A stretch of 64,000 nt of DNA from Luscinia megarhynchos. Lineage: Eukaryota; Chordata; Aves; Passeriformes; Turdidae. The notes beneath the pieces are model-generated. The model saw only the letters and a program-made list of their open reading frames with translations, was not told the origin of the DNA and searched no databases. Location of the stretch: the NCBI GenBank assembly GCA_034336665.1, contig CM067591.1:1674001-1738000 (forward strand). The letters are read 5' to 3'. Position 1 is the first letter of the stretch. The number at the start of each line of letters is the position of its first letter. This document shows, in pieces, positions 2,237 to 64,000 of the stretch. The translations under genes were made by a program, and so were the position numbers.

Positions 2237-2244
2237 GCCCGCAG

Positions 2245-6800: not shown

Positions 6801-9800
6801 CATCCCTGTGTCCATCCCATGTCCATCTTGTCCATCCTCCATGTCCATCTGTCCATCCCTGTGTCCATCCCATGTCCATCTGTCCATCCCCATGTCCATC
6901 CCTGCCCCATGTCCATCTGTCTGTCCATCCCCAGGCCTGCTGCCACTTCAACGACAGTGCTCCTGGGTCCTGCTGTGCCCATGGCTGTGTCCATCCCCGT
7001 GTCCATCTGTCCCATCCCTGTGTGCCCATCCCCTGTGTCCATCCCGTGTCCATGCCGGTGTCCCATCTGTCCATCCCCGTGTCCATCTGTCCGTCTGTCC
7101 GTCCCCAGGCCTGCCGCCACTTCAACGACAGCTGCTCGTAGTGCCCCGCTGTGCCCGCAGTCGCCATCTACACAACAAGCTCACCTTCCAGCTGGGCCCA
7201 ACCCCGACACCCAAGTACCAGTACGGGGGGGGTCTGCGATGGGAGTGCCCCCGTGAGTCGGGGTCTGGGGGGTTTTGGGGCTCTGGGGGGTTTTGAGCTC
7301 GCTCGAGGTGACCCTAGGGGGTCTCCCCTGAGATAATTCGTGGTGGACCAGAGCTCGTGGGCGCCTGCCCCAACGACAAGATGGAAGTGGAGAAGAACGG
7401 GCTGAAGATTCATGAAAGCCCTGTGCGGGGCTGTGCCCCAAGGGTGCACGGCCTGGGGGTGTCCCGGGGGCTGGGGGTACCCTGGGACCCCCTGAGCCCC
7501 CCTGCCCGCCCCCGCAGCCTCATGAGGGCACCAGAGCCGGCAGCAAGTACCAGACCGTGGATTCCAGCAACATCGACACCTTCGTCAACTGCACCAAGAT
7601 CCTGGGCAACCTCGGGACTTCCTCATCACCGGCCTGGAGGGGTGAGGGCACTGGGGGCCGGGGGTGGGATTGGGGGGTCAGGGGATTTGGGGGGTTCAGG
7701 GGTGGGATTGAGGGGTCGGGGGGTTAGGGGCGTCAGGGGGGTTTGGGGGGTTCAGAGGTGGGATTGAGGGAGTTCAGAGGTGGGATTGGGGGGTCAGGGG
7801 GGTTTAGGGGGTTCAGGAGGGTTTGGGAGGGCATCAGGGAGGGCTTTGGGACTCAGATGGGATTTGGGGGAGTTCAGGGATGGGATTTGGGGGTTCAGGA
7901 TGGGGTTTGAGGGAGCTCAGGGAGGATTTAGGGGCTCAGGGTGGGATTGGGGGTCAGGGGGTTAGGGGGCGTCAGGGGGTTTGGGGGTTCAGGAGGGGTT
8001 TAGGGGTTCAGGGTGGGATTTGGGGAGCCAGGGGTGGCATTGGGAGGTCTCAGGGATGAGATTTGGGGGGTTCAGGGGTGGGATTTGGGGTGTTCAGGGA
8101 TGGGATTTGGGGGGTTCAGGGTGTGAATTTGGGGCGTTCAGGGGTGGAATTTGGGGCGTTCAGGGATGGGATTTGGGGGGTTCGGGATAGGATTTGGGGG
8201 GTTCAGGATGGGATTTGGGGCTCTCGGGATTTGGGGGAGTGCAGACCCTCGGCCCAGCCCGGCTGAGCGCTCCGGCCCCGCAGGGACCTCCTGGCGCAAC
8301 ATCTCGGCGCTGGACCCCGAGAAGCTAGAACGTGTTCCGGACCGTAGCGGGAGATCACGGGTGAGGAGGGGGCTGGGGGTGCCGAGACCCCCCTGGAGCC
8401 CCCCGGGACCCCCTGGAGCCCCCCTGGGGCCGCGCTGAGCCCGCGCTGTCCCCGCAGGGTACCTCAACATCCAGTCCTGGCCCAAGCACATGCACAACTT
8501 CAGCGTCTTCTCCAACCTCGAGACCATCGGGGACGGAGCTCTACAAGTGAGGAGCCCCCCGGCGTGTCCCGCCCCTCCCCGGCATCCCCCGGCCCCTGAA
8601 TCCCCCGGTTCCCCAATTCCTGAATCCCCCGGTTCCCCAATTCCTGAATTCCTCATTCCCCAATCCTGAATTCTGTTTCCCTCCAATTCCTGAATTCCCC
8701 ATTCCCCCAATTCCTGAACTCCCCCTTTCCCCAATCCTGAATTCCCCATTTCCCAATTCCTGAATTCCCCGGTTTCCCCAATTCTGAATTCCCCATTTCC
8801 CCAATTCCTGAACTCCCCATTTCTCCCAATTCCTGAATTCCCATTTCCCCACCTCCCGAACTCCCCTGTTTTCCTCAATCCTTGAATTTTCCATTTCCCC
8901 CAATTCCTGAATTCCCATTTCCAATTCCTGAACTCGGTTTCCCCAATTCCTGAACTCCCCGGTTTCCCCACTCCTGAATTCCCCATTTCCCCACTCCTGA
9001 ATTCGTTCCCCAATTCCCTGAATTCCCATTCCCCCAATTCTGAACTCCCCTTTCCCCAATTCCCCGAATTCCCATTCCCCACCCTGAATTTCCTGGTTCC
9101 CCAATCCCTGAATTTTCCCCACTTTTCCCACCCTGACTCATTTCAATTCCCTGACCCCCATTCGACTGAACTCCCCTGTTTTCCCTCAATCCCTGAATTT
9201 TCCATTTTCCCAACTCCCTGAATTCGCTTTTCCTTGCTCCTTGAATTCTCTACTTTCCTGAATTCTCCGAACTCCCCTGGTTTCGCCTTCCATTCCTGAA
9301 TTCCCTGTTTTCCCCAATTCCCCTGAACTCCCTCGTCTTCCCCAACCCCCGGAATTCCTGAAATTTTCCGTTTTCCCATCCCTCGGAACTATCCCTTGCT
9401 TTTCTGAATTCTGATTCCCCGAATTCTAATTCATGTTTCTCCTCTGCACTTCTGGAATTCCGTATTTCGGCCCTGGATTCTCCCTGCCCTCCCCTCCCAT
9501 CCGCCTGCTGCCGGGCTCCCGGAGCTCCTCCCCGCTTCCGCTCCTCGCTCCCTGCTCCCGATCTCATCTTCTCTGGGCATCCCCTGCACTGGTTCATCCT
9601 CCTGTCCCATGCTCTGACTCGTGGGTCTCATCCTCCTCGGTTCATCCCTGGGCTCCCGGTTCATTCTCTTTGGACTCCCTGTTCATCCTCCTGGTCTCAT
9701 CCGGGCTCTGGATTCATCCTCCCCGGTTCATCCTTTGACTCCCCGGGTTCATCCTCCTGGTTCATCCTCGCTCTCGATCTCATCCTCCCTGGGCCTGCAT

Positions 9801-12800
9801 TCATCCTGGACTCCCGGTTCATCCTCCTGGTGCATCTGGAAATTCTCGTCTGTCATCCTCCCGGTGCATCCCCCTGCCTCTCGGTTCATCTGGGCTCCTG
9901 GGTTCATCCTGGGCTCCTGGTTCATCCCCTGGGCTCCCTGGTTCATCCTCCCGGTGGATCCCCCGGCTCCCAGCTCATCCCTCTCCCGGTTCATCCCGGC
10001 TCCCGGAGCAGCTCCCTGATGCATCCCCTCGGCTCCTGGGTCGCCCACTGCTCCCGTGCAGCTCCCAGCTCGCTACGTTCATCCTCCGGCGCATCCAGCA
10101 CTGCTTCGAGCTCATCCTCGGGCTCCCGGTTCATCCCGGGAGCAGCCCTGGTTCATCGGAGCTCGTTCATCTGGCTCCGTGGATCACGTCTCCAGTGCAT
10201 CTGATTCCCGGTGCGCGGTTCCCGGGAGCGCAAATCATCCTCCTGAGCACTGCGCTGGGTGAGGCTCCACTGCTCCCTGAGCAGCTCAGAGCATCCCACC
10301 CCCGAACATCAGCACCCCAGATGCACACCTCCGAGCTGTTCCCCGAGCGAGCCCTCGGATTCGGAGGATTTCCTCCTGGCTTCCTGGACCACACACAGAG
10401 CACTGATTCCCTAGAGCACTCAGCTCCTGGAGCTCTTGGCTCCGTGAGCATCCCACGAACATTCCCCATTCCGAGGATTTCCTGGCTCCCCTGACCACTC
10501 AGAGCACACTCCCAGAGAGCACTCCACTCCCCCGAGCAGCTCGTGAGCATCCCACCACCCCGGAACATTCAGCACCCAAAGTACTCCCATCTCCTGAGCA
10601 GCTCCCGAGCAGCCCCATCTCCTGAGCACCCCCAGTTCCGGGAGCATCCCACCCCCAGAGCATCCCACTCCGAACATTCCCCATTCCCGGAGGATTTCCT
10701 GGTTCCCTGACCACCCCAGCAGTACCTCTCGGCTCCCGGAGCAACGCGGAGCATCCCAATTCTGGAACATTCCCCATTCCCGGAGGATTTCCTGGCTCCC
10801 TGACTCACCCCCCAGAGCACGCTGAACTCCCATAGAGCAGCTCGAGCATCCTGCAGTACTGAACATTCCCAGCTCCAAGAGCTACCTCTTCATCTCTGAG
10901 CCTCAGCATCTCCTGGAGCACTAGTTCTTGAGAGCATCCCCCGATTCCCTGGAGGATTTCTTTGGCTCCCCTGGCACCCCCAGAGCACGCCCCGATTCCT
11001 GCAGAGCACCCCCGAATTCCCTGGAACTCATCTCCCCGAACTCCGCTTTTCCTTTCCTTTCTGCACAGCCGCGCTCTCGCATGCTGATCATGAAGAACGA
11101 GAACGTGACGTGGCTGGGCCTGCGCTGCGGGAGGCAGAGCGCGGGCCGCGTGTACATCACGGAGAACCGGCGCTCTCTGCTTCCTGCACACCGTGCACTG
11201 GCGCGCTCTCCAGCCGCAGCCGCGCTGACCTCGGACATCCGCAACATACCGGCTCCTGCAGCAAGTGCCGTGCGTGGGCAGGGGCTGGGAGGGGGCGCGG
11301 GGACCCTGCGACCTGATGGGTGCCCCCCAGACCCCACACTTGTGGCTGTCCGTCCTATGGGGAGGGACACCAGGACCCCCAAATCCCATACTCTTTCCAA
11401 GATCCCGGCTCTGCAGCAGAGAGGGGGCGCGGGACTCGGGACTCCAGGCTGGGCGCCCCCAGACCCCCACACACACTGAGACCACCCCCGTCCGGCCCCA
11501 TGGGAGGGGACACTGGGGACAAAGTCCGCCACTGAGACTGCCCGTCCCATGGGGAGACACCGACAGACCCTCCTCGTATTGAGACATCTGTCCCGGCCAG
11601 GGAGTGTGTGTGTGGGACCCTCTGGGACCCCTCGCAGCCTCGCGCAGGAGCTCCCCCATCCCTCCGAGAGCCCCCCAGCCCTGCCTCCTCCCGACCCTTA
11701 CATGGCGTGGCTCTTGTGCCCTGTTCCCATGGGTGACGTGCTCCCACTCCTGACCCCACGTAGACTGCAGCCCCACTGTGATCTCCGTGGGTGACCCCCA
11801 GCCCCACCCCTGACCCCATGCAGTGACCCTCAGCCCCAGCCGTGCTCCCAGCCCAGCCCAAGCGGTGACCCTTCTGCTGTCGCAGAGCAAGAGGGAAGGT
11901 TTGTGACTCCGGGCCGTAGCTCGGCCGAGGGCCGCTGGGGCCGGGGCCCGGCAGTGCCTGTCCTGCCGCTACTACAGCCGGAGTCTGCAGTGTCCCACCT
12001 GCCGCCACCCAGTCAGCGGGCACGCGCGCGACATGGGGGCAATGGGGACATGGGGGCATGGGGACATGGGGACACCCGGGTGGGCACTGGGGTGGGGTCG
12101 TGGGTGGGATATCAGCCCCAGGTGGCAGTGTGGGGTGGGCATGGGGTCCCAGGTGAGATGGACGCTGAAAGAGGGACCAGGGTGGGGTGGTCACTGTCAG
12201 GGTGACTCCCAGGGGTGGGGTGTGTACACTTTTGGGGACCCCCCAGGGTGACTCCCACACCGTCAGGGTGACTCCCAGCCCTGCTGCCCACCCCTGCGCC
12301 CCTGGGCCATATCAGTGATCCCGGTGACTCCTCCCCGATCCCAGTGACTCCTGGGCCATATTATCGCGATCCTGGTGACTCCCCTCGATCCCGGTGACTT
12401 CGGGCCATATCAGTGATCCCTGTGACGGCCATTTGTGATCCCGGTGACCCTCTCCTCGGGCATATATCGCGATCCTCTGTGACTCTTCGGGCCATATTGA
12501 TCCCGGTGACCTCCCTGGGCCATAGTCATGATCCTGGTGCCCTCCCTGACAGTGACTTCTGCCATGTCAGTGATCCCCGGTGACCCCTCCGGCCATAGCT
12601 CGCGATCCCGGTGCCCCCCGCCCCTTGCAGGGACCCGCAGCTGAGTTCTCGCAGGACTCCTGGGAGTGCCCGGAGTGCCACCTGGAATGCGAGCGCATCG
12701 ACGGCATGCGCCACCTGCAACGGTTGGCATGGCTCTCGCTGTCTGCTGTCTCCTCAAGCGCTGTCTCCTGCGCTGCCCGCTGGCCCTGTCACACTTTCCT

Positions 12801-17260: not shown

Positions 17261-17360
17261 NNNNNNNNNNNNNNNNNNNNNNNNNNNNNNNNNNNNNNNN
17301 NNNNNNNNNNNNNNNNNNNNNNNNNNNNNNNNNNNNNNNNNNNNNNNNNNNNNNNNNNNN
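17261..17360. other. Assembly gap, 100 N
   Basis: Exactly 100 N, the usual placeholder for a gap of unknown size. ERBB3 exons 19 to 28 and BLOC1S1 exons 1 and 2 are both missing around it. Whatever lies here is therefore likely at least several kilobases, or the two sides are not true neighbours. Confidence 0.98.
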
Positions 17361-37400: not shown

Positions 37401-38538
37401 CCACAAATTCACCCACAAACCCCCTCCTCAAATTCACCCCCTGCAGAAACCCCCTCCTCAAATCCACCCTCAGAAACCCCCCTCCCCAAATTCCCTCCCT
37501 GCAGAAACCCCCTCCTCAAATTCACTCTCAGACACCCCCCTCCCCAAATTCACCTACAGAAACCCCTCCCCAAATTCACCCAGAAATCCCCTCCCCAAAT
37601 TCACCCCTGCAGAATCCCCCTCCCCATGCAGAACCCCTTCCCAAATCCCCTTTCCCAAATCCCCCTCACCAAATTCCCCTGCAGAACCCCCTCCCCCAAA
37701 TTCCCTCTGCAGAATCCCCCTCCCCAAGTCCCGCTGCAGAATCCCCCTCCCCATGCAGAACCCCCTCCCCAAATCTCCGCCCGCCGCGTCCCGGCTCCAA
37801 TTTTGGGGACAAATTAAAGGCTGGGGGGGACACCGGGAAGGGGACACGGGAGGGAGCACAGGGACGGACACACGGACACGGGGGGGGCAGCGCCCAGCCC
37901 AGGAAGTGTCCGGCCTTCCGGCTACGCGCGAGCCGCGGGGGGGGGGGGGGGGCTGCGCCGGCCCCCTCGGGGGGTCCCCCGGCGGACCGGGGGGGGGTTC
38001 ATCCACCGGGACCCCCCAGCCCCCCAGCCCCCTCCCCGCGGGGCGCTGGCGCCGTGTCACCGTGTCACCCGTGTCACCGTGTCACCGTGTCCCCCGCGCC
38101 CCCCGCGGCCCCGCCGCTCCGGGGGTGACTCAGCCCCGGCGCCGCCAGGGTGGGGACAGCCCGGGGGGGCAGGAAGGGGCCCCGTGTCCCCCGTGTCCCC
38201 CCGTGTCCCCGCTTATCTCCCGTGCCCCCCGCGCCCCCCGCTCCGGCCGTTGCTCCCGCCGCTCTTTCCCTCACCCCGACTTCCCCAAACTCTCGGGGGT
38301 CCCCCCCGCCCCGCCCCCCCTCGCCTTTGGGGGTCCCCTGTCCCCCCCATCCTGCTGGGGGACAGGGATGTGGCTTCACCCACAGCGACAACAACCCCCC
38401 GCCCCCGGCACCCGGGACCCCCAGACCGGGGAGGGGCGGCCGGGTCCCGGCCCGGTTCGGCCGCGGACTCACCCCGAAGATGAAGTTGAAGAAGAACAGC
38501 AAGAACTTGACGCACTTCATGCCCCCCTCGACCGCCAT
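31496..38538 (-). CDS. CD63: CD63 tetraspanin
   Basis: Four-pass tetraspanin of late endosomes, lysosomes, melanosomes and exosomes; organises membrane cargo and carries a C-terminal GYEVM lysosomal targeting signal. Coding exons in gene order: 38538-38473, 36900-36722, 35832-35760, 34539-34441, 34372-34226, 32561-32478, 31563-31496. Seen: MAVEGGMKCVKFLLFFFNF (TM1), GVALLAAGSLVLLALA, ALWGCCGAW with the tetraspanin CC, ALIFLVEIAAAIAGHVYRDK (TM3), FSCCGVNNYTDWA with the CCG signature, PASCCGA, WLRRNLAALAALALGVACF (TM4) and LGVVLSCCLMRGI, ending EVM-stop. Single-base errors break the frame in the second, third and last exons (the Tyr of GYEVM is lost to one), so no continuous frame can be written. 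It converges on RDH5 as in mammals. Confidence 0.93.
31565..32450 (-). repeat. Arrays in last CD63 intron
   Basis: 31570-31850 on the + strand is GGGACAGGGACACTTTTGGG. 31880-32450 is GGGGTCTCACCCCACATTTG with CACACCCAGG or CACACCCACGG linkers, about 22 units. GGTCTCAC on the + strand reads GTGAGACC on the gene strand, a donor-like core. Confidence 0.88.
32565..34225 (-). repeat. Arrays carrying the CD63 exon 34226-34372 donor edge
   Basis: Units of roughly 200 bp: the gene-strand string GGCCCGGCGCGGGCGTGTTC, a G-T-G-A-G-A donor and intron sequence (TCTCGGTGTGATTTGGGGAG on the + strand) recur from 32775 to 34225. Copies of the exon end plus donor are near 32770, 32936, 33327, 33531, 33750, 33881, 34086, and the true one is at 34226. 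Confidence 0.9.
34545..36715 (-). repeat. GGGGGTCAC / GGGGTCTCAG arrays in CD63 introns
   Basis: 34545-35740 is a 9- to 20-bp array of GGGGTCACGGGG and GGGGTCAGGGGG. 35850-36715 is GGGTCTCAGGGGGTCCCGGG. The exon 35760-35832 stands alone between them. Confidence 0.9.
36905..37790 (-). repeat. CCCCCTCCTCAAATTCACCC array in CD63 intron 1
   Basis: About 40 units of 18 to 25 bp with AGAAACC, AGACACC or AGAATCC linkers between the first and second coding exons. 37800-38470 is unique GC-rich intron in which I see no gene. Confidence 0.9.
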
Positions 38539-40189: not shown

Positions 40190-43100
40190 TCACGACCCGG
40201 GCAGCTCTCCCAGCTCTCCCAGCTCTCCCAGTTCTCCCAGCTCGCCCAGCTCGCCCAGCGCGCCCAGCACGGCCCGCAGGTGCTGGGGGGTGCACGAACG
40301 CCACCAGCCCCCGCTGTTGGCCCAGCGCTCGGGCCCCGCTCGGCCCGGCCGCGGCCGGTGATAAACCAGCTCGGGGGGCTCCGCCGCGCCCCCCGCCCGC
40401 AGCGCCCCCTCCAGCGCCACCACGCCGCCCCCCAGCGCCCGCAGGATGGCGTGGGGCGCGCACGAGTCCCAGACGAAGGTGGTGGCCTGCGACAGCACGA
40501 AGGCGTCCGCCAGCCCCAGCGCCACGCAGAGCAGCTTGTAGCCCGCCCCGGCGGCGAAGAGCGGGGGACCCCCGCCCAGAGCGGCCAGAGCCCCCCGCAC
40601 CGCCGCCCCCTCGGCCCGGCTCAGCACCACGCGGGGGCGCGGCCGGGGGGCGGGGGGCGACAGCGAGCACAGCCGCGTGTCACCGTGCGCCACCCCCCAG
40701 TGGTAGCGACCCTGCCACCTGCGGGGAGCGGAGGGGAGGGGTCAGCGGGGGGACCTGAGGGGGTGGGACCCCGGGGTGCGGGGATATGGGGGATGGGACC
40801 CCAGGGGTGGGGGATATGAGGGGGTGGGACCCCAGGGGTGGAGGGTCAGGGTGACAGGGACCCCCGGGGTGGGGATATGGGAGGTAGGACCCTGGGTGAG
40901 GGGTCAGGGGGGACAGAGACCCCTGGGATGAGGGGTCAGGGGGATATGGAAGTTGGGACGCTGGAGTAGGAGGGCCTGGGACCCCCCGGGACGTGGGGTA
41001 TGGGGGAATGGGGACCCCAGGGTCGGGTGTGAGAGGGACCCCAGGGTGTGGGGTATGGGGTGACAGGGACCGCAGGGTGGGGGGTCAAGGGGTGACAGGG
41101 ACCCCCAGAGCAGGATCAGGGGTGACAGGGACCCCGGGGTGTGGGGTATGGGGTGTCAGGGATCCCGTGGGGGGTCAGGGGTGTCAGGGACCCCCAGAGC
41201 AAGATCAGGGGACTCAGGGACCCCGGGGTGTGGGGTATGGGGTGCCAGGGATCCCGTGGGGGGGTCAGGGGTGGCAGGGACCGCGGGCTGCGGGCTCCGG
41301 CTGCACCTGCGGGTCTGGGGGTCCCTCTGGAAGAAGGGCTCGTTGATGACGCCCAGCACGGGGGTCCCGGTGCGGCGCTCGAAGGCGCCCACGAGCACCA
41401 GGGCGGAGCGCAGCCCCCCGGGCGCCACGCCATCCACGGCGGCCACGTCCTCGCGCCCCCCGATGAACTCGTTGGTGGAGTCTGGGGGGTTTGGGGGGTT
41501 TGCCGGGGGGTCTGCGGGGTCCCAGCCCGGCCCTGCCCCATCCCACAGCCCCTGGCACTGCTCCCATCTCTGTTCTTCTTCCTATCCCCTCCATCCCATC
41601 CCATCCCCGTCGTCCTTTCCTTTCCTTTCCTTTCCTTTCCTTTCCTTTCCTTTCCTTTCCTTTCCTTTCCTTTCCTTTCCTTTCCTTTCCTTTCCTTTCC
41701 TTTCCTTTCCTTTCCTTTCCTTTCCTTTCCTTTCCTTTCCTTTCCTTCCTTTCCTTCCCTTTCCTTCCCTTTCCTTCCCTTTCCTTCCCTTTCCTTTCCC
41801 TTTCCCTTTCCTTTCCTTTTCCTTCCCTTTTCCTTTTCCCTTTCCTTTCCCTTTCCTTTCCTTTCCTTTCCTTTCCTTTCCTTTCCTTTCCTTTCCTTTC
41901 CTTTCCTTTCCTTTCCTTTCCTTTCCTTTCCTTTCCTTTCCTTTCCTTTCCTTTCCTTTCCTTTCCTTTCCCTTTCCTTTCCTTTCCTTCCCTTCCTTCC
42001 CTTCCCTTCCTCCCTTCCCTTCCCTTCCCTTCCCTCCCTTCCCTCCCTTCCATCCATCCCATCCATCCCATCCCATCCTGTCCCTGTCCCTGTCCCTGTC
42101 CCACAGCCCCTCCCCCTCACCGATGGGGTCAATCCAGATTCCCACGTCCCCCGGGGACACTCCGGGCTCGACGTCAGCCAGCTCCGTGTCCCCAAGTGTC
42201 ACCTCCCTGTGCACGGTCTCCGCCAGCAGCTCGGCCGCCCTCGTCTGCTCGGGGCCCAGCACGGCCACCAGCAGCGCCGCCGTGTCCGCCGGGGTGGCAC
42301 CGACCCGCACTGTCACCGTGCCACCTGCGGGGACACAGATCAGCCAGGGAATGGCACAGGGACCCCCGGGGTGGCACCGACCCGCACTGTCACCGTGCCA
42401 CCTGCGGGGACACAAATCAGCCAGGGAATGGCACAGGGACACTGGGGTGGCACCGACCCGCACTGTCACCGTGCCACCTGCGGGGACACAAATCAGCCAG
42501 GGAATGGCACAGGAACCCCCGGGGTGGCACCGACCCGCACTGTCACCGTGCCACCTGCGGGGACACAAATCAGCCGGGGAATGGCACAGGGACCCCCGAC
42601 TGAGCCCCACAGATCCCGGCGTGGGGACCCTGGGACATGGGGACAGGTGACACTTGGGACATGGGGACATGGGACATGGGGGCAGGTGACACTGGGACAT
42701 GGGACATTGGGACCTCCCTCCTCAGCCTTGGCCTCGCGTCCCCCAGAGATGTTCCCACCCCACTGTCCCCACTCTGTCCCCGCTGTCCCCACACTGTCCC
42801 CACTCTGTCCCCACTCTGTCCCCGCGCTGTCCCCTCCCTGTCCCCACTGTCCCCACACTGTCCCCACTCTGTCCCCGCTTTGTCCCCACCCCTGTCCCCG
42901 CTGTCCCCGCTGTCCCCACTCACCCTCCGCGTCCCTGAACTCGTTGTTCTCCTCCCCATGGATGTGTCCCCGGAGCTCGGGGAACTGCGGGGACACCGTG
43001 GGGACACCGGGGGGCTCAGGGGAGGCCCGGGCGGTGCCAACCCCACCTCGGCCACCCCCGGGCTGTCCCCACCTGTGTCCCCAGGTCGTGCTTGATGACC

Positions 43101-43276
43101 TCCTGGATCAGGACATCCGCCAGCGTCTTGAAGTCCCGCGGGAACCGCGCGTTCCGGTCGGGTCCCGTCTTCTCGGCCACCAGCAGCCGGAACAGCGGCT
43201 CCTCCGCCCGGCACAGCCGCGCCACCTCCGCCGCCTTCTGCGACACCGCCACCAGCGCGGGCAGCAGCCCCGCCAT
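40190..43276 (-). CDS. Inositol polyphosphate 1-phosphatase-like (INPP1 paralog), intact
   Basis: Best fit is INPP1, the Mg-dependent, lithium-sensitive enzyme that removes the 1-phosphate from Ins(1,4)P2 and Ins(1,3,4)P3. Coding exons in gene order: 43276-43073, 42984-42924, 42324-42121, 41481-41307, 40718-40190; lengths 204, 61, 204, 175, 529 sum to 1173 nt (390 residues; human INPP1 has 399) with no frameshift. Seen: DFKTLADVLIQEVIK, the acidic GEENNEF, the split metal motif GIWIDPI/DST across exons 3 and 4, GTPVLGVINEPFFQRDP, AAGAGYKLLCVALGLADAF (starting FAAGAG), and WDSCAPHAILRALGGG. Catalytic Asp, Glu and Thr positions are kept. The C-terminus has a run of GEL repeats. It lies between CD63 and GDF11, where I recall no gene in mammals; canonical INPP1 sits near MSTN. 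It may be an ohnolog, or a translocated INPP1. Confidence 0.9.
40740..41300 (-). repeat. GGGACCCCGGGGTGTGGGGT array, INPP1-like intron 4
   Basis: Units of GGGGTCAGGGGTGACAGGGA and CCCCGGGGTGTGGGGTATGG between the last two exons. Confidence 0.8.
41608..42055 (-). repeat. CCTTT pentanucleotide microsatellite, INPP1-like intron 3
   Basis: About 430 bp of CCTTT units, pure over 41608-41745 and 41850-41970, with CCCTTT and CCCTT variants between and at the right end. It is a strict polypyrimidine/polypurine strand asymmetry, prone to triplex (H-DNA) formation and length change. Confidence 0.95.
42292..42600 (-). repeat. Four tandem copies of the INPP1-like exon 3 acceptor edge
   Basis: The + strand unit GGGGTGGCACCGACCCGCAC, TGTCACCGTGCCACCTGCGG, GGACACAAATCAGCCAGGGA, ATGGCACAGGGAC is about 80 bp and occurs four times. 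Only the first (exon end at 42324) joins the rest of exon 3. The others each keep the CAG acceptor and about 35 coding bases. Confidence 0.92.
42750..42920 (-). repeat. CTGTCCCCACTCTGTCCCC array, INPP1-like intron 2
   Basis: About 12 units of 12 to 18 bp between exons 2 and 3. Confidence 0.8.
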
Positions 43277-46038: not shown

Positions 46039-49000
46039 ATGGCCCCGCTGTGGTGGCTGCTGGGCTCGCTGGTGGCCGCGGTGGCGGGGGGGTCGGTGGA
46101 GCAGCCCCCCGCCTCCGAGCCCGCCTGCCCCGTGTGCCTGTGGCGGCGGCAGAGCAAGAGCTGCGGCTGGAGAGCATCAAGTCGCAGATCCTGAGCAAGC
46201 TGCGGCTGAAGGAAGCGCCCAACATCACCCGGGAGGTGGTGAAGCAGCTGCTGCCCAAGGCCCCCCCGCTGCAGCAGCTCCTGGACCTCCACGACTTCCA
46301 GGGGGACTCGCTGCAGCACGACGAGTACCTGGAGGAGGACGAGTACCACGCCACCACCGAGACCGTCATCAGCATGGCCCAGGAAAGTCAGTGCCGCCCT
46401 TTGTTCCGCTGCAAACTTCGCCGGAGGACTCCCCCCCCCTCCCAGCCCCGAGCCCCCCACCCCGGGTCCCCTCTCGGTCCCCCCGCTCGTCACCGGTGTC
46501 CCTGCGGGGCGCCCCGTCCTCCGCCGAGCCCCCCCCGGTGCTCCCCGAGCGCCCCCGGGGCTCTGAACCCCCCGCGGGCCCTTCTGGTCCCCCCCCGGTC
46601 CGTGCGGGTCCCGCGGGGACCCTCGGTGTGCGCGGGGACGGGGGGGACAGAAGGGAGAGGGGACAGAGGGACAAGGGGACAGGGGACGGAGGGAGAGAGG
46701 GACAAGGGGACAGAGGGACAAGGGGACAGAGGGACAAGGGGACAGGACAGCGCAGCCGGAACTGGGAGAGCAGACTGGGACTGCCCGCCGGGGACTGGGA
46801 GAGGGGCCCGGTACTGGGGACCAGGAGTGGCACCGGGTGCTGGGAGGTGGCGCTGGGGACACAGGATGGCACTGGGGACACAGGATGGCACTGGGGACTG
46901 GGAGCGGGTGCTGAGTGCTGGGAGCTGTTACTGGGAGCTGGCACTGGGAGCTGGACTGGGGAGCAGCAGCTGGCACCGAGTGCTGGGCTCGGGGACCGGG
47001 TGCTGACACCGAGGACGGGGAGCTGGTACTGGGATTGAGGACTGGGAGCTGGGACTGGAACGTGGTACTGGTACTGGGATTGAGGACTGGGACTGGGACT
47101 GGGACATAGTGCTGGTACTGGGATTGAGGACTGGGACTGGGACTGGGACTGGAACGTGGTACTGGTACTGGGATTGAGGACTGGGACTGGGACATAGTGC
47201 TGGTACTGGGATTGAGGACTGGCAGCTGATTCTGAGTGCTGGGACCTGGTGCTAGAGCATTGTACTGGGACTGGGACATGGTACTGGGACGTGGGACTGG
47301 GGGACTGGGACATAGTACTGGGACTGGGACGTGGGACTGGCACTGGGAGCTGGCAGTAGCACCTGGCCCAGCACCAGCACTGGGACCTGGCCCTGGGTGC
47401 TGGGAATTGGGAATGGGGACTGGGATTAGGAACTGGGACCAGGAACTGGGAGCTGAGAGGACACTGGGAGCGGGAACTGAAACTGGGAACTGGGGAGTGG
47501 GACTGGGAGCTGGGAATTGGCAGCAGGGACCGTGTGTGCTGGGACCTGGCACTGGGGCTGGGGACTGGGACTGGGACTGGGAGACTGGGACCTGGCACTG
47601 GGACTGGTGACTGGGACTGGGGACTGGGACTGGGAGACTGGGGACTGGGACCTGGGACTGGGACCTGGCACTGGGGACCTGGCACTGGGACTGGGGACCT
47701 GAGACTGGGGCTGGGACTGGGGACTGTCACCAGGCACTGGCACCGCTCAGCAGTGGCACTGGGGACACACGGCAGGTGGCACGGTGACCTCGCGCTCCCC
47801 AGGGCGTGTGGCAGGGTGACAGCAGGGTGACAAACAGGGTGACAGCAGGGTGACGCTACGGTGCCATCAGGGTGACGTCAAGGCCACAGCAGGGTGACAG
47901 TGTGACAAACAGGGTGACAGCAGGGTGACAGCAAGGCCACAGCAGGGTGACAGCAGGGCGACAAACAGTGTGACAAACAGGGTGACAGCGGGGTGACAAA
48001 CAGTGTTACAGCAGGGTGACAAACAGTGTGACAAACAGTGTGACAGCAGGGTGACAGCAGGGTGACAACAGGGTGACAAACAGGGTGACAAACAGGGTGA
48101 CAGCAGGGTGACAGCAGGGTGACAAACAGTGTGACAGCAGGGTGACAAACAGGGTGACAAACAGGCCGTGCTGGGGGTCCCCGCGGGGACAGCGGGGAGG
48201 GGTCTCGGGGACTCGGCCCCGCCCCTGCCTCAGTTTCCCCCGGGATTTCTCCACCTGCTCCCGGCGCGGGACCCCCGGGGGGGCGAGGGGCCGGGGGCGA
48301 AGGGCGAGCGGAAGGGAGGGAGGTGTGAGCCGCTGCCGCCCCCTCCCCGAATTTCCTTCCCAGGCATTAAATGCACTCGGGCGGCTTTGAAATTTTATTA
48401 CCCATAAAATTGACGACACGCTGGGGTTTTCCTCCCCGGGCCTCGGGCCCCCCCTCCCCGCCCCTTTCGCAGCTCGGGGGCCCCCAAAATAAAGGGCAGA
48501 GCCCCTCCCCCCGCGCGGGGGTCCCGCGGGCCCGGACCCCCGGCCGGATGCTCCCCGGGGGGGGACGGGGGGCTCCGCTCCGTTATTATTTTGATTTTTT
48601 TCCCCCTCTCCGCTCGCCCCCCCCCCCCGGGCAATTGTGGGGTTTTTATGGTTCCTGAACAGAAGGAGGGGAAGGGGCTTTATGGGCGCAGCGGAGCCAT
48701 AAAGCTCTCGGGTTCCCCCGGCGCCCCCCGCCCCCCGAGCCCCCCACCCTGCCGAGGGGGGGCTGGACTGCGGGAGGAGCCCGGGGAGGTTAATTGGCTC
48801 CTAAACCCACCGAGGGGCTACCCGTGACCCCCGCGACCCGCGGGGGGTGGGGAGCTTAATGAGGCCCGGGGGGGGCCGGGGGGGGCCCGGGGGGCGCCGC
48901 TCAAGGTCAGCGGGACACGGTTGGGGACACAAGGGTTGGGGACACGGGGACAGCGCCGAGCACCTCGAGGGGGGGCCCGGGGTGGGGGGGGGCCGCGCTC

Positions 49001-52000: not shown

Positions 52001-52801
52001 TCATGTCCTCTCACCGCCGGCACCTCTGCTGTCCCGTGACCCCTCACCATTGTCCCCTCACTGCTGTCCCCATGTCCCCTCACCATTGTCCCCTCACTAT
52101 TGTCCCCCATGTCCCCTCACCATTGTCCCCTCACTGCTGTCCCCATGTCCCCTCACCATTGTCCCTGTGTCCCCTCACCGCTGTCTCCTCACCCTGTCCC
52201 GTGTCTCTCACCCTGTCCCGTGTCCCTCACCCTGTCCCGTGTCCCTCACCCTGTCCCGTTTCCCCTCACACTGTCCTTGTCCCTCACGGTGTCCCGTGTC
52301 CCTCACGCTGTCCCGTGTCTCTCACCCTATCCCGTGTCCCCTCACCCTGTCCCGTGTCCCTCACGCTGTCCCGTGTCCCTCACCCTGTCCCGTGTCCCTC
52401 ACGCTGTCCCGTGTCCCCAGCACCCCTTCATGGAGCTGCGGGTCCTGGAGAACAACAAGCGCTCCCGGCGGAACCTGGGGCTGGACTGCGACGAGCACTC
52501 GACGGAGTCGCGCTGCTGCCGCTACCCGCTCACCGTGGACTTCGAGGCGTTCGGCTGGGACTGGATCATCGCCCCCAAGCGCTACAAGGCCAACTACTGC
52601 TCGGGCCAGTGCGAGTACATGTTCATGCAGAAGTACCCGCACACGCACCTGGTGCAGCAGGCGAACCCGCGCGGCTCGGCCGGGCCCTGCTGCACGCCCA
52701 CCAAGATGTCCCCCATCAACATGCTCTACTTCAACGACAAGCAGCAGATCATCTACGGCAAGATCCCCGGCATGGTGGTGGATCGCTGCGGGTGCTCCTA
52801 G
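46039..52801 (+). CDS. GDF11: GDF11 (BMP11), three coding exons
   Basis: TGF-beta-family ligand that signals through ACVR2A/B and ALK4/5 to SMAD2/3; it patterns the trunk-to-tail transition and neural and retinal progenitors. Exons: 46039-46386, 50716-51090, 52421-52801. Seen: short hydrophobic signal peptide [67 protein letters not shown] (exon 1); [49 protein letters not shown] (exon 2); [13 protein letters not shown] furin site, then a 109-residue mature domain with all nine cysteines ending DRCGCS (exon 3). [14 protein letters not shown] and PGMVV identify GDF11, not MSTN. One base is off after VCLWRRQS in exon 1 and one G is extra at 51083-51087. The prodomain start is shorter than in mammals and lacks the alanine run. 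Confidence 0.95.
46630..48165 (+). repeat. GDF11 intron 1 left arrays
   Basis: 46640-46760 is GGGACAAGGGGACAGA. 46770-47750 is GGGACTGGGACTGGGAC with GGTACTGGGATTGAGGACT units. 47810-48165 is GGGTGACAGCAGGGTGACAA, about 25 units of 13 to 26 bp. Confidence 0.88.
48340..48720 (+). promoter_or_regulatory. Non-repetitive intron 1 block with CDX/posterior-HOX motifs
   Basis: Within the GDF11 intron this is a repeat-free, locally AT-richer block. CCATAAA occurs at 48402-48408 and 48697-48703, and its complement TTTATGG at 48645-48651 and 48679-48685. This heptamer is the CDX and posterior HOX recognition core. Candidate enhancer; inference from motif clustering. Confidence 0.4.
48720..49930 (+). 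other. GDF11 intron 1, unique GC-rich part
   Basis: About 1.2 kb with little tandem repetition and several AT-containing islands (GGTTAATTGGCTCC at 48789, GCTTAATGAGG at 48853, CTATTAAACCTGACC at 49471). No exon is evident. It may hold regulatory elements. Confidence 0.4.
49905..50660 (+). repeat. GDF11 intron 1 right array
   Basis: Units of CGGGGGTCCCGGTGTGGGA and CCCAGAGCGCGGCTCGGGGG, about 25 to 45 bp, up to 55 bp before exon 2. Confidence 0.88.
51100..52418 (+). repeat. GDF11 intron 2 arrays
   Basis: 51110-51350 is GGGGTGTCCCCAAGGGGG. 51390-51780 is GGGGACAGTGACAGCTCTG, then CACCCGGGCAGGGCTGGGGA. 51880-52200 is CCCCTCACCATTGTCCCC. 52200-52418 is CCCTCACCCTGTCCCGTGT, which merges into the polypyrimidine tract of the exon 3 acceptor. 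Confidence 0.88.
52472..52798 (+). CDS. GDF11: GDF11 mature ligand domain
   Basis: Starts at [10 protein letters not shown] directly after the RSRR furin site and runs to CGCS. It holds the cystine-knot cysteines, the inter-chain cysteine (PCCTP) and the [10 protein letters not shown] wrist region. This stretch is open and error-free, in contrast to exon 1. Confidence 0.96.
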
Positions 52802-57589: not shown

Positions 57590-58740
57590 GGGGACAGCGG
57601 GGGGACAGGGGGGTGGCACTAAGGGACAGCGGGGACAGAGGGACAGCAGGGACAGGGAGGACAGAGAGGGGACAGAGAGGGGACAGGGGGGTGGCACTAA
57701 GGGGACAGCGGGGGACAGAGAGGGGGACGGGGGGGTGGCACTAAGGGACAGCGGGGGACAGAGAGGGACGGGGGTGGCACTAAGGGACAGCGGGGGACAG
57801 AGAGGGGACAGAGAGAGGGGACAGTGGGGAAAAACACCCACAAATTCCTGGGAAAAGAGCCACAAATTCCTGGGAAAATACCCCAAAATCCCTGGAAAAA
57901 GAGACAGTGGAGACAGTGAGGACAGTGGGGACAGTGAGGGGGACGGGGATTTGGGGCCATCCCAAAAATTCCCAAAGAATTTCAGGATCCTTGAGTTCCA
58001 GTCCCCAAAGTGCCTCAGGAGCAGGGTTTGGTGCCATCCCAAATATTCCCAAATTATCCCGGAATTCTGGTGGTTCAGTCCTAGATAGCCCAAAAATCCC
58101 AAAATTCCCTGTGCCCTCCTCTGGAAAAAGCTCAGGAATTCCTGGAAAATCAAGGGAACACCTGGAAAACCTCAGGAAAACCTTGAGAAAACCTGGATTC
58201 AACCCCAGGAATTCCTGGATAAACCTTGAGAATATCTCGGTAACACCAGGAAAACTTCAGGAATTCTTGGATAATACCAGGAAAACATTGAAAAAACCTC
58301 AGGAATTCCTGGAAAACCTCGGGAAGACCTGAAAAAGCTCAGGAGTTCCTGGATAACACCAGAAATTCCTGGCAAACTTCAGGAACTCCTGGATCTTCTC
58401 AGAAACACCTGGAAAACCTCAGGAAAACGTGGAAAACCTGGATTTAACTCCAGGAATTCCTGGAAAACCAGAGAACAGCTGGAAAACACCAGGAACACCT
58501 GGAATATTCTTTGATAAGCTCAGGAATCTCTGGATAAGATCTTGAGCAAACCTGGATTTAACTCCAGGAATTCCTGGATAAGATCAGGAATTCCTGGATA
58601 ACACCAGGAAAATGTGGGAAACCTCAGGAATTCCTGGATAAACTCAAGAAAACATGGAAAATCTTGAGCAAACCTGGATTTAACTCCAGGAATTCCTGGA
58701 AATTCCTCCAGGAAAGGAAGGAATTCCAGGGGCTTTTCCC
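57590..58740. repeat. Arrays before SARNP: GACAGCGGGGGACAGAGAGG then GGAATTCCTGGAAAACC
   Basis: 57590-57830 is G-rich. From about 57830 the base composition changes to A-rich AATTCCTGGAAAA units, which dominate to the window end. No gene is seen between. Confidence 0.85.
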
Positions 58741-58810
58741 ACAGCTCCATCCCCGCATCCAAACCCCTGGAAAAAATTGGGATTTCCTTGGAAAAGGGAA
58801 TTTTTTTTTT

Positions 58811-58816
58811 TTTATT
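58811..58816 (-). terminator. SARNP polyadenylation signal (candidate)
   Basis: TTTATT on + (AATAAA on -) directly beside a run of T on the + strand. It lies 1.5 kb beyond the SARNP stop, so the 3'UTR would be long or contain an intron. Confidence 0.45.
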
Positions 58817-59329
58817 GGGAAATGTGGGATGAGAGGCAGCGCCCGACCCTTCCGAGGGAAAAACCGGGAAAAATAGAAAAAATGGGAATACAAAACCCAG
58901 CAATGGCTGGAATGCTGGGAAAATGGGAAAAACTGGGGAAAACTGGGAATGAGGGAGGAGCCAGGGAGCCACCAGGACATGGGGATGTCCCTGGATCCCG
59001 AGGATTTTGGGATGGGAAGGAGCATCCCGGGAATTTCCCGGAGTGTCCGAGGTTCCCGAGGGTGGGGAACGCTCGTGGAAAAGGAGAATTCCCAAAAAAA
59101 TAGAATCTCTTGGCCTGGGAATGGCCCCAGAACTCTGGGAATGGCCCTGGCCTCGCTGCTCCCAACGCTCCGGGATGAGATTCCTGAAATTCCCGCCGGG
59201 AATTCCAAATCCTGGGAGCTCAAGTCTTCAACAGGGGAAGGGTTCAGGCAGCGCCCACCTGGAAATCCAAGAAATCTCTGGGATTGCTGCTCTGATTCAT
59301 TGGGAAGCTCCCAAAAATCCCATGGGATT

Positions 59330-60165
59330 GGGATCCCATGTTTCTCCATAAATTCCCACAAAATCCCTGTAAAAACAGCCCCAAAATCCCTGGAAAAATA
59401 ACCCCAAATTCCTAGGAAAATAATCCCAAATTCCTGGGAAAACAACCCCAAAATCTCTGGAAAAACAACCCACAAATTCCTGGGAAAAGCAACCCCAAAT
59501 CTCTGGAAAAAACAACCCCAAATTTCTGGGAAAAGAGCCACAAGTTCCTAGAAAAACACCCCAAATCCATGGAAAAATACCCCAAAATCCCGGGAAGAAA
59601 CAACCCCAAAATGCCCTGGAAAAAATAACCCCAAAATCTCTGGAGAAAACACTCACAAATTCCTGGGAAAAGAGCCACAAGTTCCTAGAAAAATACCCAA
59701 AAAATCCATGGAAAACCACCCCAAAATCTATGGAAAAATAGCCACAAATTCCTAAAGAAACACCCCAAAACCCTGGAAAAACAACCCCAAATTCCCTGAG
59801 AAAAGAACCACAAATTCCTAGAAAAACAACCCCAAATCCATGGAAAAACACCCCAAAATCCCTGGAAAAAACAGCCACAAATTTCTGGCAAAAGAACCCT
59901 AAAATTTCTAGAAGTCCACTGCAAAATTCCTGGAAAAACACCCCAAAATCCCTTGGAAAAAACAGCCACAAATTCCTAAAAAATGACCCCAAATCCCTGG
60001 AAAAACATCCCCAAAATCCCTGGGCAAAAAGCCCCAACTTCTTGTAAAAATGGCCACAAATCCTTGGAAAAAAAGCCCCAAATCCTTGGGAAAAAGCACC
60101 ACAAAATTCTACAAAAACAATCCCAAATCCCTGGAAAACCCTGACATTTTGGGAACTCTGCCTAG
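59330..60165 (-). repeat. CCAAATTCCTGGGAAAA array in SARNP 3' region
   Basis: About 40 units of CCCCAAAATCCCTGGAAAAA and CACAAATTCCTGGGAAAAGA between the stop codon and the candidate poly(A) site. Confidence 0.88.
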
Positions 60166-60336
60166 GATTTGGGAATTCCTCCCTCCCAAGCCCAGCCCCT
60201 CCTTTTCCCCCCAGATTTTTCAGGAAAAATGCCCAAAGCTGAGGAGAGAATTCTCTGAGGAAAGGGGAATTCCATGGAAAATGGGGAATGAGGGAAAGGG
60301 GCTCCTGACCTGAGGGGGTGCAGAGCTGTGAGTGGC

Positions 60337-63300
60337 TCAGACGATCCCGAACCTTTCTGCCCTTTTCCTCTTCTTTGCCTGCATTTGGGAACAGCCAAAA
60401 AGAGGGAAAATCCTGGAATTCCATGGGGGAGAATCCCAGGGAAGAGTGGGAGAGGGAGGGGGGTGGGAACTGGGGAATTCCTGATCACCAAGGGCAGGAA
60501 AATCCTGGGATCTGGGGGGGTTTCCTGAGGAAAAGAGGCTCAAACCACAGAGAATTCCAAAATCCAAATTCCTGGGAAAACGGGCCCCAAATTTGTGGAA
60601 AAATGGTCCCAAAATCCCTGGGAAAAATGGCCCTAAAATCCATGGAAAAATGGCCCAAAATCCATGGAAAATGGTCCCAAAATTCCTGGGAAAACAGGCC
60701 CCAAATTTTGGAAAAATGGCCCAAAATCCCTGGGAAAATGGCCTCAAAATTCCTGGGAAAACAGGCCCTGAATTCTGGAAAAATGGCCCAGAAATCCATG
60801 GAAAAATGATCCCAAATCTCTGGAAAACCACCCCAAATCCAGGGAACCCCCTCCCCCAAAATCCAAGGAAAATCTCCCTAAATTCAGGGAAAATGGGACA
60901 AATCCCTGGGAAAATGGCCATAAATTCCTGGGAAAACAGACCCCACATTCTGGAAAAATGGCCCCAAAATCCACAGAAAAATGATCCCAAATCCATGGAA
61001 AACCCTCAAGGGTTGGGAATTGGGAAGTGGTTTTGGGATGAGCCCAGGGATTTCTGGGAATTCCCAGCCCCAAATCCCAGAATTCTGCCCCACCTCGGAA
61101 TCCTCGGCAGCCCCGGCTCCGGTGACGATCCCGAACCTTTCCTTCCTCTTCTTCAGCTTCTCATCCTCCTCACTCTGGGAATGTTTGGAATGTTGAGAAT
61201 GGGATCAGGAATTCCCCAAAACCCCAATTTCCAAACCCCCAAATTCCTGAAAAACGCCAATTCCCAAAAACCCAAAATTCCTGAAAAAGCCGATTTCCCA
61301 AACCCTAAAGTTCCTGAAAAACCCCAATTCCCAAAAATCCCAATTCCAAAAATCCCAAAATTCCCTAAAACCCCAACTCCACAAAACCCCAAAATTCCTC
61401 AAAAACCAAAATTCCCTAAAAACCAAAATTTCCCCCAAAAAACCCCCAGAATTCAAAAAAACGAAATTCCAAACAAACTGAAATTCCCAAACCCCCAAAT
61501 TCCCTCAAAACCTGATTTCCCAACCCCCTAAAATTCCTGAAAAACCTCAATTCCCAAAAAACCAAAATTCCCCAAACCCCAAAATTCCCAAAAATCCAAG
61601 CCCAGGGAAGGCTGGAGCTGGCAGGGCTGGAAAACTTTTGGGATTTTGGGATAATCCAGTCCTTGGCATTCCCAGAATTCCCCAAATTCCCGACTCTCAC
61701 CTTCTTGGAGAGGGAGGAGACGTTGAGGCCAAACCTCTGGGCCCTTTCCTTGAGCTTTTCCAGGTTTATCTGGGAACAGGAAATTTGGGATTTGGGATTG
61801 GGGGTGAGGCCTCGACTCCCAAAGGAGAAAAATTCCAAAATAAACTCCTGGAAAATTTCCCCCATTCCTGAGCTCCAGAGGGGCTGGTCCTGGAAAAGCC
61901 CCAGGGATTTCTGGGGAATTCCAACCCAAAATCCAGCTGTGATCCCAAAATTCCAGGTCTGATCCCAAAATTCCTGCTCCTGATCCCAAAATTTCTGCTT
62001 CTAAAATTCCAGCAGAGTTCCCACCCAAAATTCCAGTTGAGATCCCAAAATTCCACCTGAGATCCCCAAAATTCCAGGTCTGGTCCCAAAACTTCAGTTG
62101 CTATCCCAAAATGCCTGTTCCCAAAATTCCCACTCTTGTTCCCAAAATTCCAGCTGAGATCCCACCCAAAATTCCTGTTCCCAAAATTCCCATTCTTGAT
62201 CCCAAAATTCCAGCTGAGATCCCACCCAAAATTCCACTGGAATTCCCAAAATCCCATCCAAATTCCCAAAATCCCAGTTTTCCTCACCGTGGGTTTGGAA
62301 TCTGCAGAGAGCCCTGGGAAAAGGAGGGAAATTCCATCAGGAATGGCCCCAAATTCCTGGATTTTACCCCAGGAATGGGAATTTGGGGACATCCCAAAAT
62401 TCCATCCCCAAATCTGCCCCAATCCCTGGTTTTTTTTGGGATGAGAAATCCCAGAAAGATCTGGGAAAATTTCAATTCTGAAATTCCTGCTCCCCAGAAA
62501 TGTGGGAAAAGGGAAATTTGTGATCCCAGAGAATCCAGAATTCCAGGAATTCCCATTCCCTGCTCCTTCTCCTCACCTTTTGTGGGAATTGTGGCCAAGC
62601 CAAACCTGTGGGAATGAAAAAAAAACAGGAATTAAGGCTGGAATTTTGGGAATTCTCCTTCCCAGGATCTTCCCTGGGTTTGGATTGACTGGAAAATGTT
62701 TGGAATTCCTGCAGGGATTCCCAAATTTTGTTTTTCAGCTTCATCCAGGAAAGGATTTTCCATGGAAAAATCTGGGAATGGGATGGGATAGGAAGGAACA
62801 GAAATCCTGCAAAATTCCCACAAGATACCAAAATTTCTCTCAAAATCCCACAAATTTTCCCCAAAGTCCCAACAAAATCCCATGAATTCCCCCAAGGTTC
62901 CCACAAAATCCTCTCAAATTCCCCAAAATTCAAAAAACAATCTCCCAAAATCCCCAAAATTTACCTCAAAAATCTCTGAAAAATCTCAAAAATTCCCTCA
63001 AAATCCCCAAATTCCCCCAAGATTCCCCACAAAATTCTCCCAAAATTCCCCCAAAGTCCCACAAAACTCCCTCAAAATCCAAGAAATTCCCACAAAACTC
63101 CCTCAAAATCCAAGAAATTCCCATAAAACTCCCTCAAAATCCAAGAAATTCCCACAAAATTCCCTCAAAATCCAAGAAATTCCCACAAAATTCCCTCAAA
63201 ATCCAAGAAATTCCCACAAAATTCCCTCAAAATCCCAAAAAAATTTGCACACAATCCCCCAAAATTCCCAACAAACCCCCGGCATTCTCCCATCCCTGAC

Positions 63301-63635
63301 CCTCCCAGGCATGCCAAATTCCCCCCAGAATTCCTAAAATTCTCCCAGAATTCTGCCCAGAATTCCCAAAATGCCCCAGAATTCCCAAATTTCCCCCCAA
63401 ATTCCCAAATTCTGGCCCCACCTCGCTGCCCTCGCTGCCTTTTTGCTCTCCAGGCTCACGGGGACATTGAACCTCTCGGCCCTTTTCTGCATCCTCTGCA
63501 AAACAGGGAAAGGGACAAGGGAATTTTGGAAATTTTTGGGTGGAAAAGAGGGATTTTTCCAGTGAAAGTCGGGATCAGGGAATTTTTTACCTCCATCTGG
63601 GAGATTTCTGAGGAGATTTTCACCACTTTCTTCTC
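60337..63635 (-). CDS. SARNP: SARNP (Hcc-1/CIP29), last seven coding exons
   Basis: SARNP is a nuclear mRNP protein of the TREX export pathway that works with the helicase UAP56/DDX39B. Exons in gene order: 63635-63591 (EKKVVKISSEISQME), 63495-63422 (RMQKRAERFNVPVSLESKK and AARAAR), 62605-62577 (FGLATIPTKG), 62313-62288 (LSADSKPT), 61769-61701 (INLEKLKERAQRFGLNVSS and LSKK), 61174-61094 (SEEDEKLKKRKERFGIVTG and AAEDSE), 60378-60337 (AKKRKRAERFGIV-stop). The repeated K-R-x-R-F-G helices that contact the helicase are all present. All exons have AG/GT sites and no indels. The N-terminal SAP domain and acidic exons lie beyond the right window edge. It is tail-to-tail with GDF11, as in mammals. 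Confidence 0.94.
60585..61010 (-). repeat. AAATGGCCCCAAAATCCATGG array, last SARNP intron
   Basis: About 18 units of CCTGGGAAAATGGCCCCAAA and CCATGGAAAAATGGTCCC. Confidence 0.88.
61200..61600 (-). repeat. CCCCAAAATTCCTGAAAAACC array, SARNP intron
   Basis: About 25 units of CCAAAATTCCCAAAAACC between the fifth and sixth exons listed for SARNP. Confidence 0.88.
61915..62280 (-). repeat. GATCCCAAAATTCCAGCTGA array, SARNP intron
   Basis: About 18 units of 20 to 30 bp with alternating CAGCTGAGATCCCACCC and CTGTTCCC linkers. Confidence 0.88.
62810..63405 (-). repeat. CCCTCAAAATCCAAGAAATT array, SARNP intron
   Basis: A highly regular 30-bp core (CCCACAAAATTCCCTCAAAA then TCCAAGAAATT) at 63070-63235, with diverged CCCCAAAATTCCC flanks. 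Confidence 0.9.
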
Positions 63636-63689
63636 CTGGATGCTGGAAAGGTTTGGGAAAAGAAAGGGAAAGGTCAGGGATGCTCCAGG

Positions 63690-64000
63690 TGGGATTTGGG
63701 ATCCAGGAATTCTCAGCCCCAAGAGTCCCAAATCCAGGGAATCCCAACCCCACAGAATCTCAAATCCAGAAATTCCATCCCTAGGAATCCCAAATCCAGG
63801 GATCCCAAATCTAGGAATTCTCAGCCCCAGGAATCTCAAATATACCAAATTCCAAATCCCAGGAATCCTAAATCCAGGAATCCCAAATGCAGGGATCCCA
63901 ACCCTAGGAATTCCAAATCCAGGAATTCTTAGCCCCAGGAATCCCAAATCTGCAAAATTCCAACCCCAGGAATTCTCAGCCCCAGGAATCCCAAATCCAG
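63690..64000 (-). repeat. AATCCCAAATCCAGGAATT array at window end
   Basis: About 20 units of CCCAGGAATCCCAAATCCAG run off the right edge inside a SARNP intron. Confidence 0.88.

Follow-up and report, generated by a model that had tools for sequence, protein, structure and literature searches.

The INPP1-like gene in the Luscinia megarhynchos window (the whole stretch of DNA that was analysed, 64,000 nucleotides) is, we hold it highly probable, INPP1-beta, one of two copies left by a duplication that predates the living jawed vertebrates and most likely belongs to the genome doublings that made MSTN and GDF11; mammals kept the other copy, INPP1-alpha, and sauropsids kept beta. The gene is an ordinary enzyme, real and already annotated. 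More interesting than the gene itself is that 'INPP1' in sauropsids and 'INPP1' in mammals are, on this reading, paralogues hidden under one name, a further example of a pattern already known.

Gene model and predicted activity

The five exons of INPP1-beta (Table 1) join into 1173 nt that encode 390 amino acids and a stop, and the spliced translation of the window has no internal stops. All four introns are GT-AG, GC3 is 92%, and the DPIDST motif, cut by the boundary between exons 3 and 4, is rebuilt on splicing. The product matches PF00459 (Inositol_P) in Pfam with an E-value of 7.4e-29 and 101.5 bits, against a curated cut-off of 27. Among solved structures, bovine INPP1 (PDB 1INP; E 3.7e-94, residues 1-364) is the closest sequence match and settles the predicted fold of the window protein.

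Table 1. Features of the INPP1-beta locus and its flanks, in window positions
Feature	Position	Strand	Remarks
INPP1-beta exon 1	43073..43276	-	204 nt; start codon 43276; metal ligand D54
INPP1-beta exon 2	42924..42984	-	61 nt; E79/E80
INPP1-beta exon 3	42121..42324	-	204 nt; ends within DPIDST motif
INPP1-beta exon 4	41307..41481	-	175 nt; starts with remainder of DPIDST
INPP1-beta exon 5	40190..40718	-	529 nt including stop; K276, WDSCA motif with D299, C-terminal 9-bp repeat
Out-of-frame block between compensating one-base homopolymer changes	40283..40312	-	frame comparison and pattern of relatives
GDF11 exon 1	46039..46387 (end approximate)	+	carries a one-base frame change
GDF11 mature domain, last coding exon	52484..52798	+	bit scores against GDF11 and GDF8
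CD63-like tetraspanin, first coding exon	38473..38538	-	exon ends by eye; tetraspanin domain

The INPP1 literature (PMC7948987) names D54, E79, E80, D153, I155, D156, D317 and T158 for metal binding or catalysis, and S157, E269, G290, A291 and K294 for the substrate. When these thirteen positions and P154 of DPIDST are aligned, the window protein is identical to bovine INPP1 at 14 of 14. The first-pass annotation had described a five-exon gene of 1173 nt in one frame with its motifs kept, and the gene model, the PF00459 match and these 14 positions confirm it. Among 22 compared relatives, S157 is replaced by Ala in three, all of them ray-finned fish.

According to PMC7948987, INPP1 works by a metal-dependent mechanism and is inhibited by lithium acting at the D54/E80 site. 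The enzyme opens the route from Ins(1,4)P2 and Ins(1,3,4)P3 to lower inositol phosphates. INPP1-type action is likely for beta because the catalytic and lithium-site residues are kept. Beta is thus most likely a Mg-dependent, lithium-inhibited 1-phosphatase of Ins(1,4)P2 and Ins(1,3,4)P3, with both activity and inhibition predicted from sequence.

Several repeats lie within the gene. Each of the four copies of a 77-bp tandem repeat (42289..42598) includes the acceptor of exon 3 together with the first part of that exon; the acceptor at 42477, if used, would add 51 residues in frame with no stop. The C-terminal 9-bp repeat (40202-40268) encodes six GEL units, compared with three in zebra finch and one or none in seven other compared relatives. 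Intron 3 of INPP1-beta contains a TCCTT array of ~420 bp (41613-42035), where assembly errors are likely.

An out-of-frame block near the C terminus

The conserved block WANxGGLVAF reads WANSGGWWRSC in the window, and the neighbouring frame gives RGLVAFVHP. Runs of G and C hold a -1/+1 pair of shifts that compensate each other and turn LVAFVH into WWRSCT, altering six residues within the block listed in Table 1. Among relatives, the pattern W[AC]N..G[LVI][VLI]A is present in 131 of the 138 alphas and 113 of the 122 betas. A consensus error is the simplest cause and a plausible one, because elsewhere in the window GDF11 exon 1 likewise shifts frame by one base; a real change in the lineage is the alternative. 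The GDF11 shift separates SK from ELRLES; the rest of that gene is conserved, and the shift is probably itself a consensus error.

The displaced block with its six changed residues, the expanded C-terminal repeat and the exon 3 acceptor duplicated by the tandem repeat might be taken as marks of a decaying pseudogene in Luscinia megarhynchos. We regard decay as very improbable: the frame has no stop, all four introns are canonical, the 14 functional positions are kept, the protein is 90% identical to that of Catharus, and the frame change in GDF11 exon 1 suggests consensus errors instead. The earlier description of the gene as intact therefore stands for the absence of internal stops and for the canonical introns, and fails for the six residues near the C terminus that are out of frame.

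Genomic neighbourhood

GDF11 is oriented head-to-head with INPP1-beta, and the two start codons are ~2.8 kb apart. For its mature domain the match to GDF11 reaches 252 bits, against 239 for GDF8. On the opposite flank a tetraspanin domain was found on two joined exon pieces, and more tetraspanin-like pieces lie on the minus strand at ~36.7 kb and, weakly, at ~34.3 kb (E 0.0022, below the Pfam cut-off). We take this tetraspanin to be CD63 from its N terminus. The position of the INPP1-like gene between a CD63-like tetraspanin and GDF11, head-to-head with the latter, is thus as first reported, on the evidence of the tetraspanin domain and the GDF11 bit scores.

Farther out, a short-chain dehydrogenase gene that resembles RDH5 starts at 23908; the human 12q13 order is presumably RDH5-CD63-GDF11. 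For two pieces, at ~8.4 and ~11.0 kb, the best match is erbB-3, with E-values of 9e-12 and 3e-4. On the plus strand, ERBB3 ectodomain pieces extend over 2229-11201; the signal is clear at 8.4 kb and weaker at 11.0 kb, and the N terminus was recognized by eye and by a weak Pfam match. They lie ~13-22 kb ahead of the RDH5-like gene; in human, ERBB3 presumably lies at a greater distance. The window also holds a 100-N run (17261-17360), probably a scaffold gap, and a sharp fall in GC from ~64% to ~45% in 58000-64000. An ARAGORN call of tRNA-Leu was set aside as a likely chance match.

Relatives and existing annotation

In the search with the window protein, only the 7990 candidates that share most words with it were scored, and the best 120 of 381 matches were examined. 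They come from birds, a crocodilian, turtles, squamates, tuatara, a caecilian, lungfish and ray-finned fish, and most are annotated as 'inositol polyphosphate 1-phosphatase' or an INPP phosphatase. The first-pass annotation had suggested that the gene could be undescribed; its orthologues are in fact widely annotated, since named birds or reptiles supply 86 of the 120 matches listed. No named mammal is among these best 120 of 381, and the 7 species-unlabelled matches group with birds, turtles, lizards or fish in the tree.

The search with bovine INPP1 (best 120 of 869) returned mammals and then amphibians at 62-64%, no named sauropsid, and species-unlabelled matches that fall among mammals, frogs or salamanders in the tree. 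A mixed profile of 8 sequences (7991 candidates scored, best 120 of 855 matches examined) added two sharks, a ray, more frogs, a second caecilian and a sturgeon. No sauropsid alpha is among these best 120 of 855, where sharks are present.

Two ancient INPP1 clades

Alpha and beta separate at 100/100 in both trees built from rows hand-chosen for spread, one of 56 rows (55 of 240 proteins and the window) and one of 41 (40 of 260 and the window). Each clade is in roughly species order. In the 41-row tree, in which the window and five other birds have odd amino-acid composition and the lungfish branch is long, alpha has sharks (with a ray) first, then salamanders, frogs and mammals as an unordered set. 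Beta runs from ray-finned fish (sturgeon, bowfin, teleosts) through lungfish, caecilians, squamates with tuatara, turtles and alligator to birds, and the window stands beside Catharus within it.

A FastTree analysis of 262 rows (260 proteins, the window and bovine INPP1), cut at the longest of the inner branches that separate bovine INPP1 from the window, gives 139 alpha and 123 beta sequences. The 139 comprise 111 from mammals, 23 from frogs, 2 from salamanders and 3 from sharks or rays, with none left over even when species-unlabelled rows are counted. DVLIQE is found in 91 of the 123 beta sequences and in none of the 139 alphas; DVLVQE is found in 128 of the 139 alphas and in none of the 123 betas. 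Class-specific residues stand at bovine positions 57, 71, 152, 182, 183 and 308, none of them among the 14 functional positions.

The approximately unbiased (AU) test rejects amniotes as one clade on the 41-row set (p-AU 5e-5, lnL 168 lower), and likewise amphibians as one clade (p-AU 7e-5, lnL 146 lower) and tetrapods as one clade (p-AU 5e-4, lnL 71 lower); all three are standard taxonomic groups and were tested once a first tree was known. With the amniote clade rejected, the window does not group as the species tree demands of an orthologue of mammalian INPP1. The root was set between alpha and beta by fit to the species tree, and BPNT1 was passed over as an outgroup because it is too distant. 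Under that root, sharks in alpha and ray-finned fish in beta place the duplication before the living jawed vertebrates; the clades match the species tree only if the root separates them, which dates the duplication to before sharks and bony fish parted.

The first-pass annotation had proposed that the lack of any other INPP1 near MSTN, together with a place inside avian INPP1 in the tree, would mark a translocated single copy rather than an ohnolog. The first of these conditions may well hold. The window does group with avian 'INPP1', yet the avian 'INPP1' proteins seen are themselves beta, the same paralogue, so that the placement is uninformative as a refutation. A single INPP1 gene that moved beside GDF11 in birds and reptiles and then diverged fast would be in keeping with the skewed composition of the birds in the tree and with the one type per amniote lineage seen among the matches listed. 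It would also have to explain why the amniote, amphibian and tetrapod clades are each rejected, why caecilians go with sauropsids but frogs and salamanders with mammals, and why class-specific residues persist across the 262 rows. We give this reading next to no credence, and a single translocated INPP1 is ruled out by the AU tests under the model used.

Chicken 'INPP1' expression data

Chicken 'INPP1' (XM_015272577) has been measured by qPCR in broiler blood and feather (PMC7333251). The primer pair printed there fits window exon 1 at the printed 59-bp spacing with 7 mismatches in 39 bases, compared with 17 at the next best place. The reverse primer alone has 2 mismatches there against 7 at the next place; the forward primer alone is unspecific, as other places in the window also match it with 5 mismatches. 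The chicken primers spell RNQRF and DVLIQE, of which RNQRF is found in 4 of the 123 beta sequences and in none of the 139 alphas. In line with the primer, P0060, which groups with a Muscovy duck protein, reads RNQRFS; its frame has 407 residues and its contig no more than 1329 bases. On the strength of the printed primers, the chicken 'INPP1' of PMC7333251 is very probably beta, and expressed. Because the primers match beta, the published chicken qPCR values would be beta data. Short contigs with whole frames, such as P0009 (1345 bases, through all five exons), look like spliced transcripts.

Proposed origin and probable reciprocal loss

We propose the following course of events. First, a duplication before the living jawed vertebrates, most likely part of the genome doublings early in vertebrate history, would have produced INPP1 alpha and beta. 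Second, mammals would have kept alpha, presumably beside MSTN. Third, sauropsids would have kept beta beside GDF11, a position seen in one songbird, and probably lost alpha.

Whole-genome doubling is the most likely source of the duplication, and an ohnolog origin is the best reading because GDF11 adjoins beta. GDF11/MSTN and ERBB3/ERBB4 are sister pairs of 12q and 2q, and we take INPP1 to lie close to MSTN at human 2q32. The timing by itself would suit an old local or segmental duplication before the jawed vertebrates equally well. Such an event would leave aside that beta adjoins GDF11, whose sister MSTN presumably lies near alpha, and that ERBB3 is in the same window, with its sister ERBB4 presumably on 2q; we judge it unlikely. 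The proposal that the gene is an ohnolog of INPP1 thus holds in that it is an ancient paralogue outside the mammalian-type clade in the trees, located at GDF11; genome doubling is its most likely origin.

The matches listed among predicted proteins suggest that sauropsids have lost alpha and mammals beta. A sauropsid alpha of ordinary rate should outscore the amphibian alphas, which reach 516 bits and up to bovine INPP1 among the matches listed, and a mammalian beta should outscore the fish betas. Neither is listed, a sound though indirect sign of reciprocal loss. No species with both copies was seen among the matches listed.

The first-pass annotation had taken the gene for a second INPP1 of the bird lineage, and there is some ground for supposing that the bird retains both copies: one turtle and two caecilian betas are named '-like', which is often so when another gene has the main name. 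Three shark and ray alphas are named '-like' too. A sauropsid alpha of ordinary rate would be expected to score at least 516 bits to bovine INPP1, and none is in the best 120 of 869; none is in the best 120 of 855 either, where sharks appear; and chicken XM_015272577 looks like beta by its primers. Retention of both is accordingly improbable in our estimate, and a second INPP1 is doubtful; with no sauropsid alpha among the matches listed, beta is more likely the sole copy.

We further think it likely, with less assurance than the identity of the gene as INPP1-beta, that all sauropsids are without alpha, and that their lithium-sensitive 1-dephosphorylation of Ins(1,4)P2 and Ins(1,3,4)P3 is carried out wholly by a paralogue that mammals lost, head-to-head with GDF11. 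If so, results on 'INPP1' would not be transferable by orthology from chicken or zebra finch to mouse or human, or the other way, and avian INPP1 measurements and cross-species lithium comparisons would have been made on non-orthologous genes. The locus would then offer a clean natural experiment, with two old enzyme copies swapped between amniote lines and with amphibians and fish showing each copy elsewhere.

Comparison with known systems

BPNT1 (3'(2'),5'-bisphosphate nucleotidase) is in the same Pfam superfamily as INPP1. It matches residues 144-319 of the window protein with an E-value of 5e-14, compared with 4e-94 for INPP1. With mammalian INPP1 (bovine 1INP), beta shares PF00459, a similar length and D54, E79, E80, DPIDST, E269, G290, A291, K294 and D317; it differs in belonging to the other paralogue clade and in one loop that is ~20 residues shorter. 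The betas are 48-53% identical to axolotl alpha. The avian and reptilian proteins named 'inositol polyphosphate 1-phosphatase' are orthologues of the window gene, full-length oscine songbirds being mostly 83-89% identical to it, and they bear the mammalian INPP1 name though the tree does not make them orthologous to mammalian INPP1.

We found no report of INPP1 alpha/beta paralogy among the open-licence papers listed for INPP1, GDF11/MSTN synteny and avian gene loss. The main text of three papers on missing or elusive avian genes (PMC12954441, PMC5901865, PMC8449477) has no word beginning with INPP, and 'inositol', 'GDF11' and 'CD63' are absent from the main text of PMC4290089. Reciprocal losses between birds and mammals, for example of ATP6AP1L2, are described there (Lovell et al. 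2014, PMC4290089). In those cases, as probably for INPP1, one member of an old pair survives in sauropsids and the other in mammals, and some avian members are misannotated as the mammalian one that is missing. Unlike the losses treated by Lovell et al. 2014 (PMC4290089), the loss of mammalian-type INPP1 seems to extend to all sauropsids and not to birds alone.
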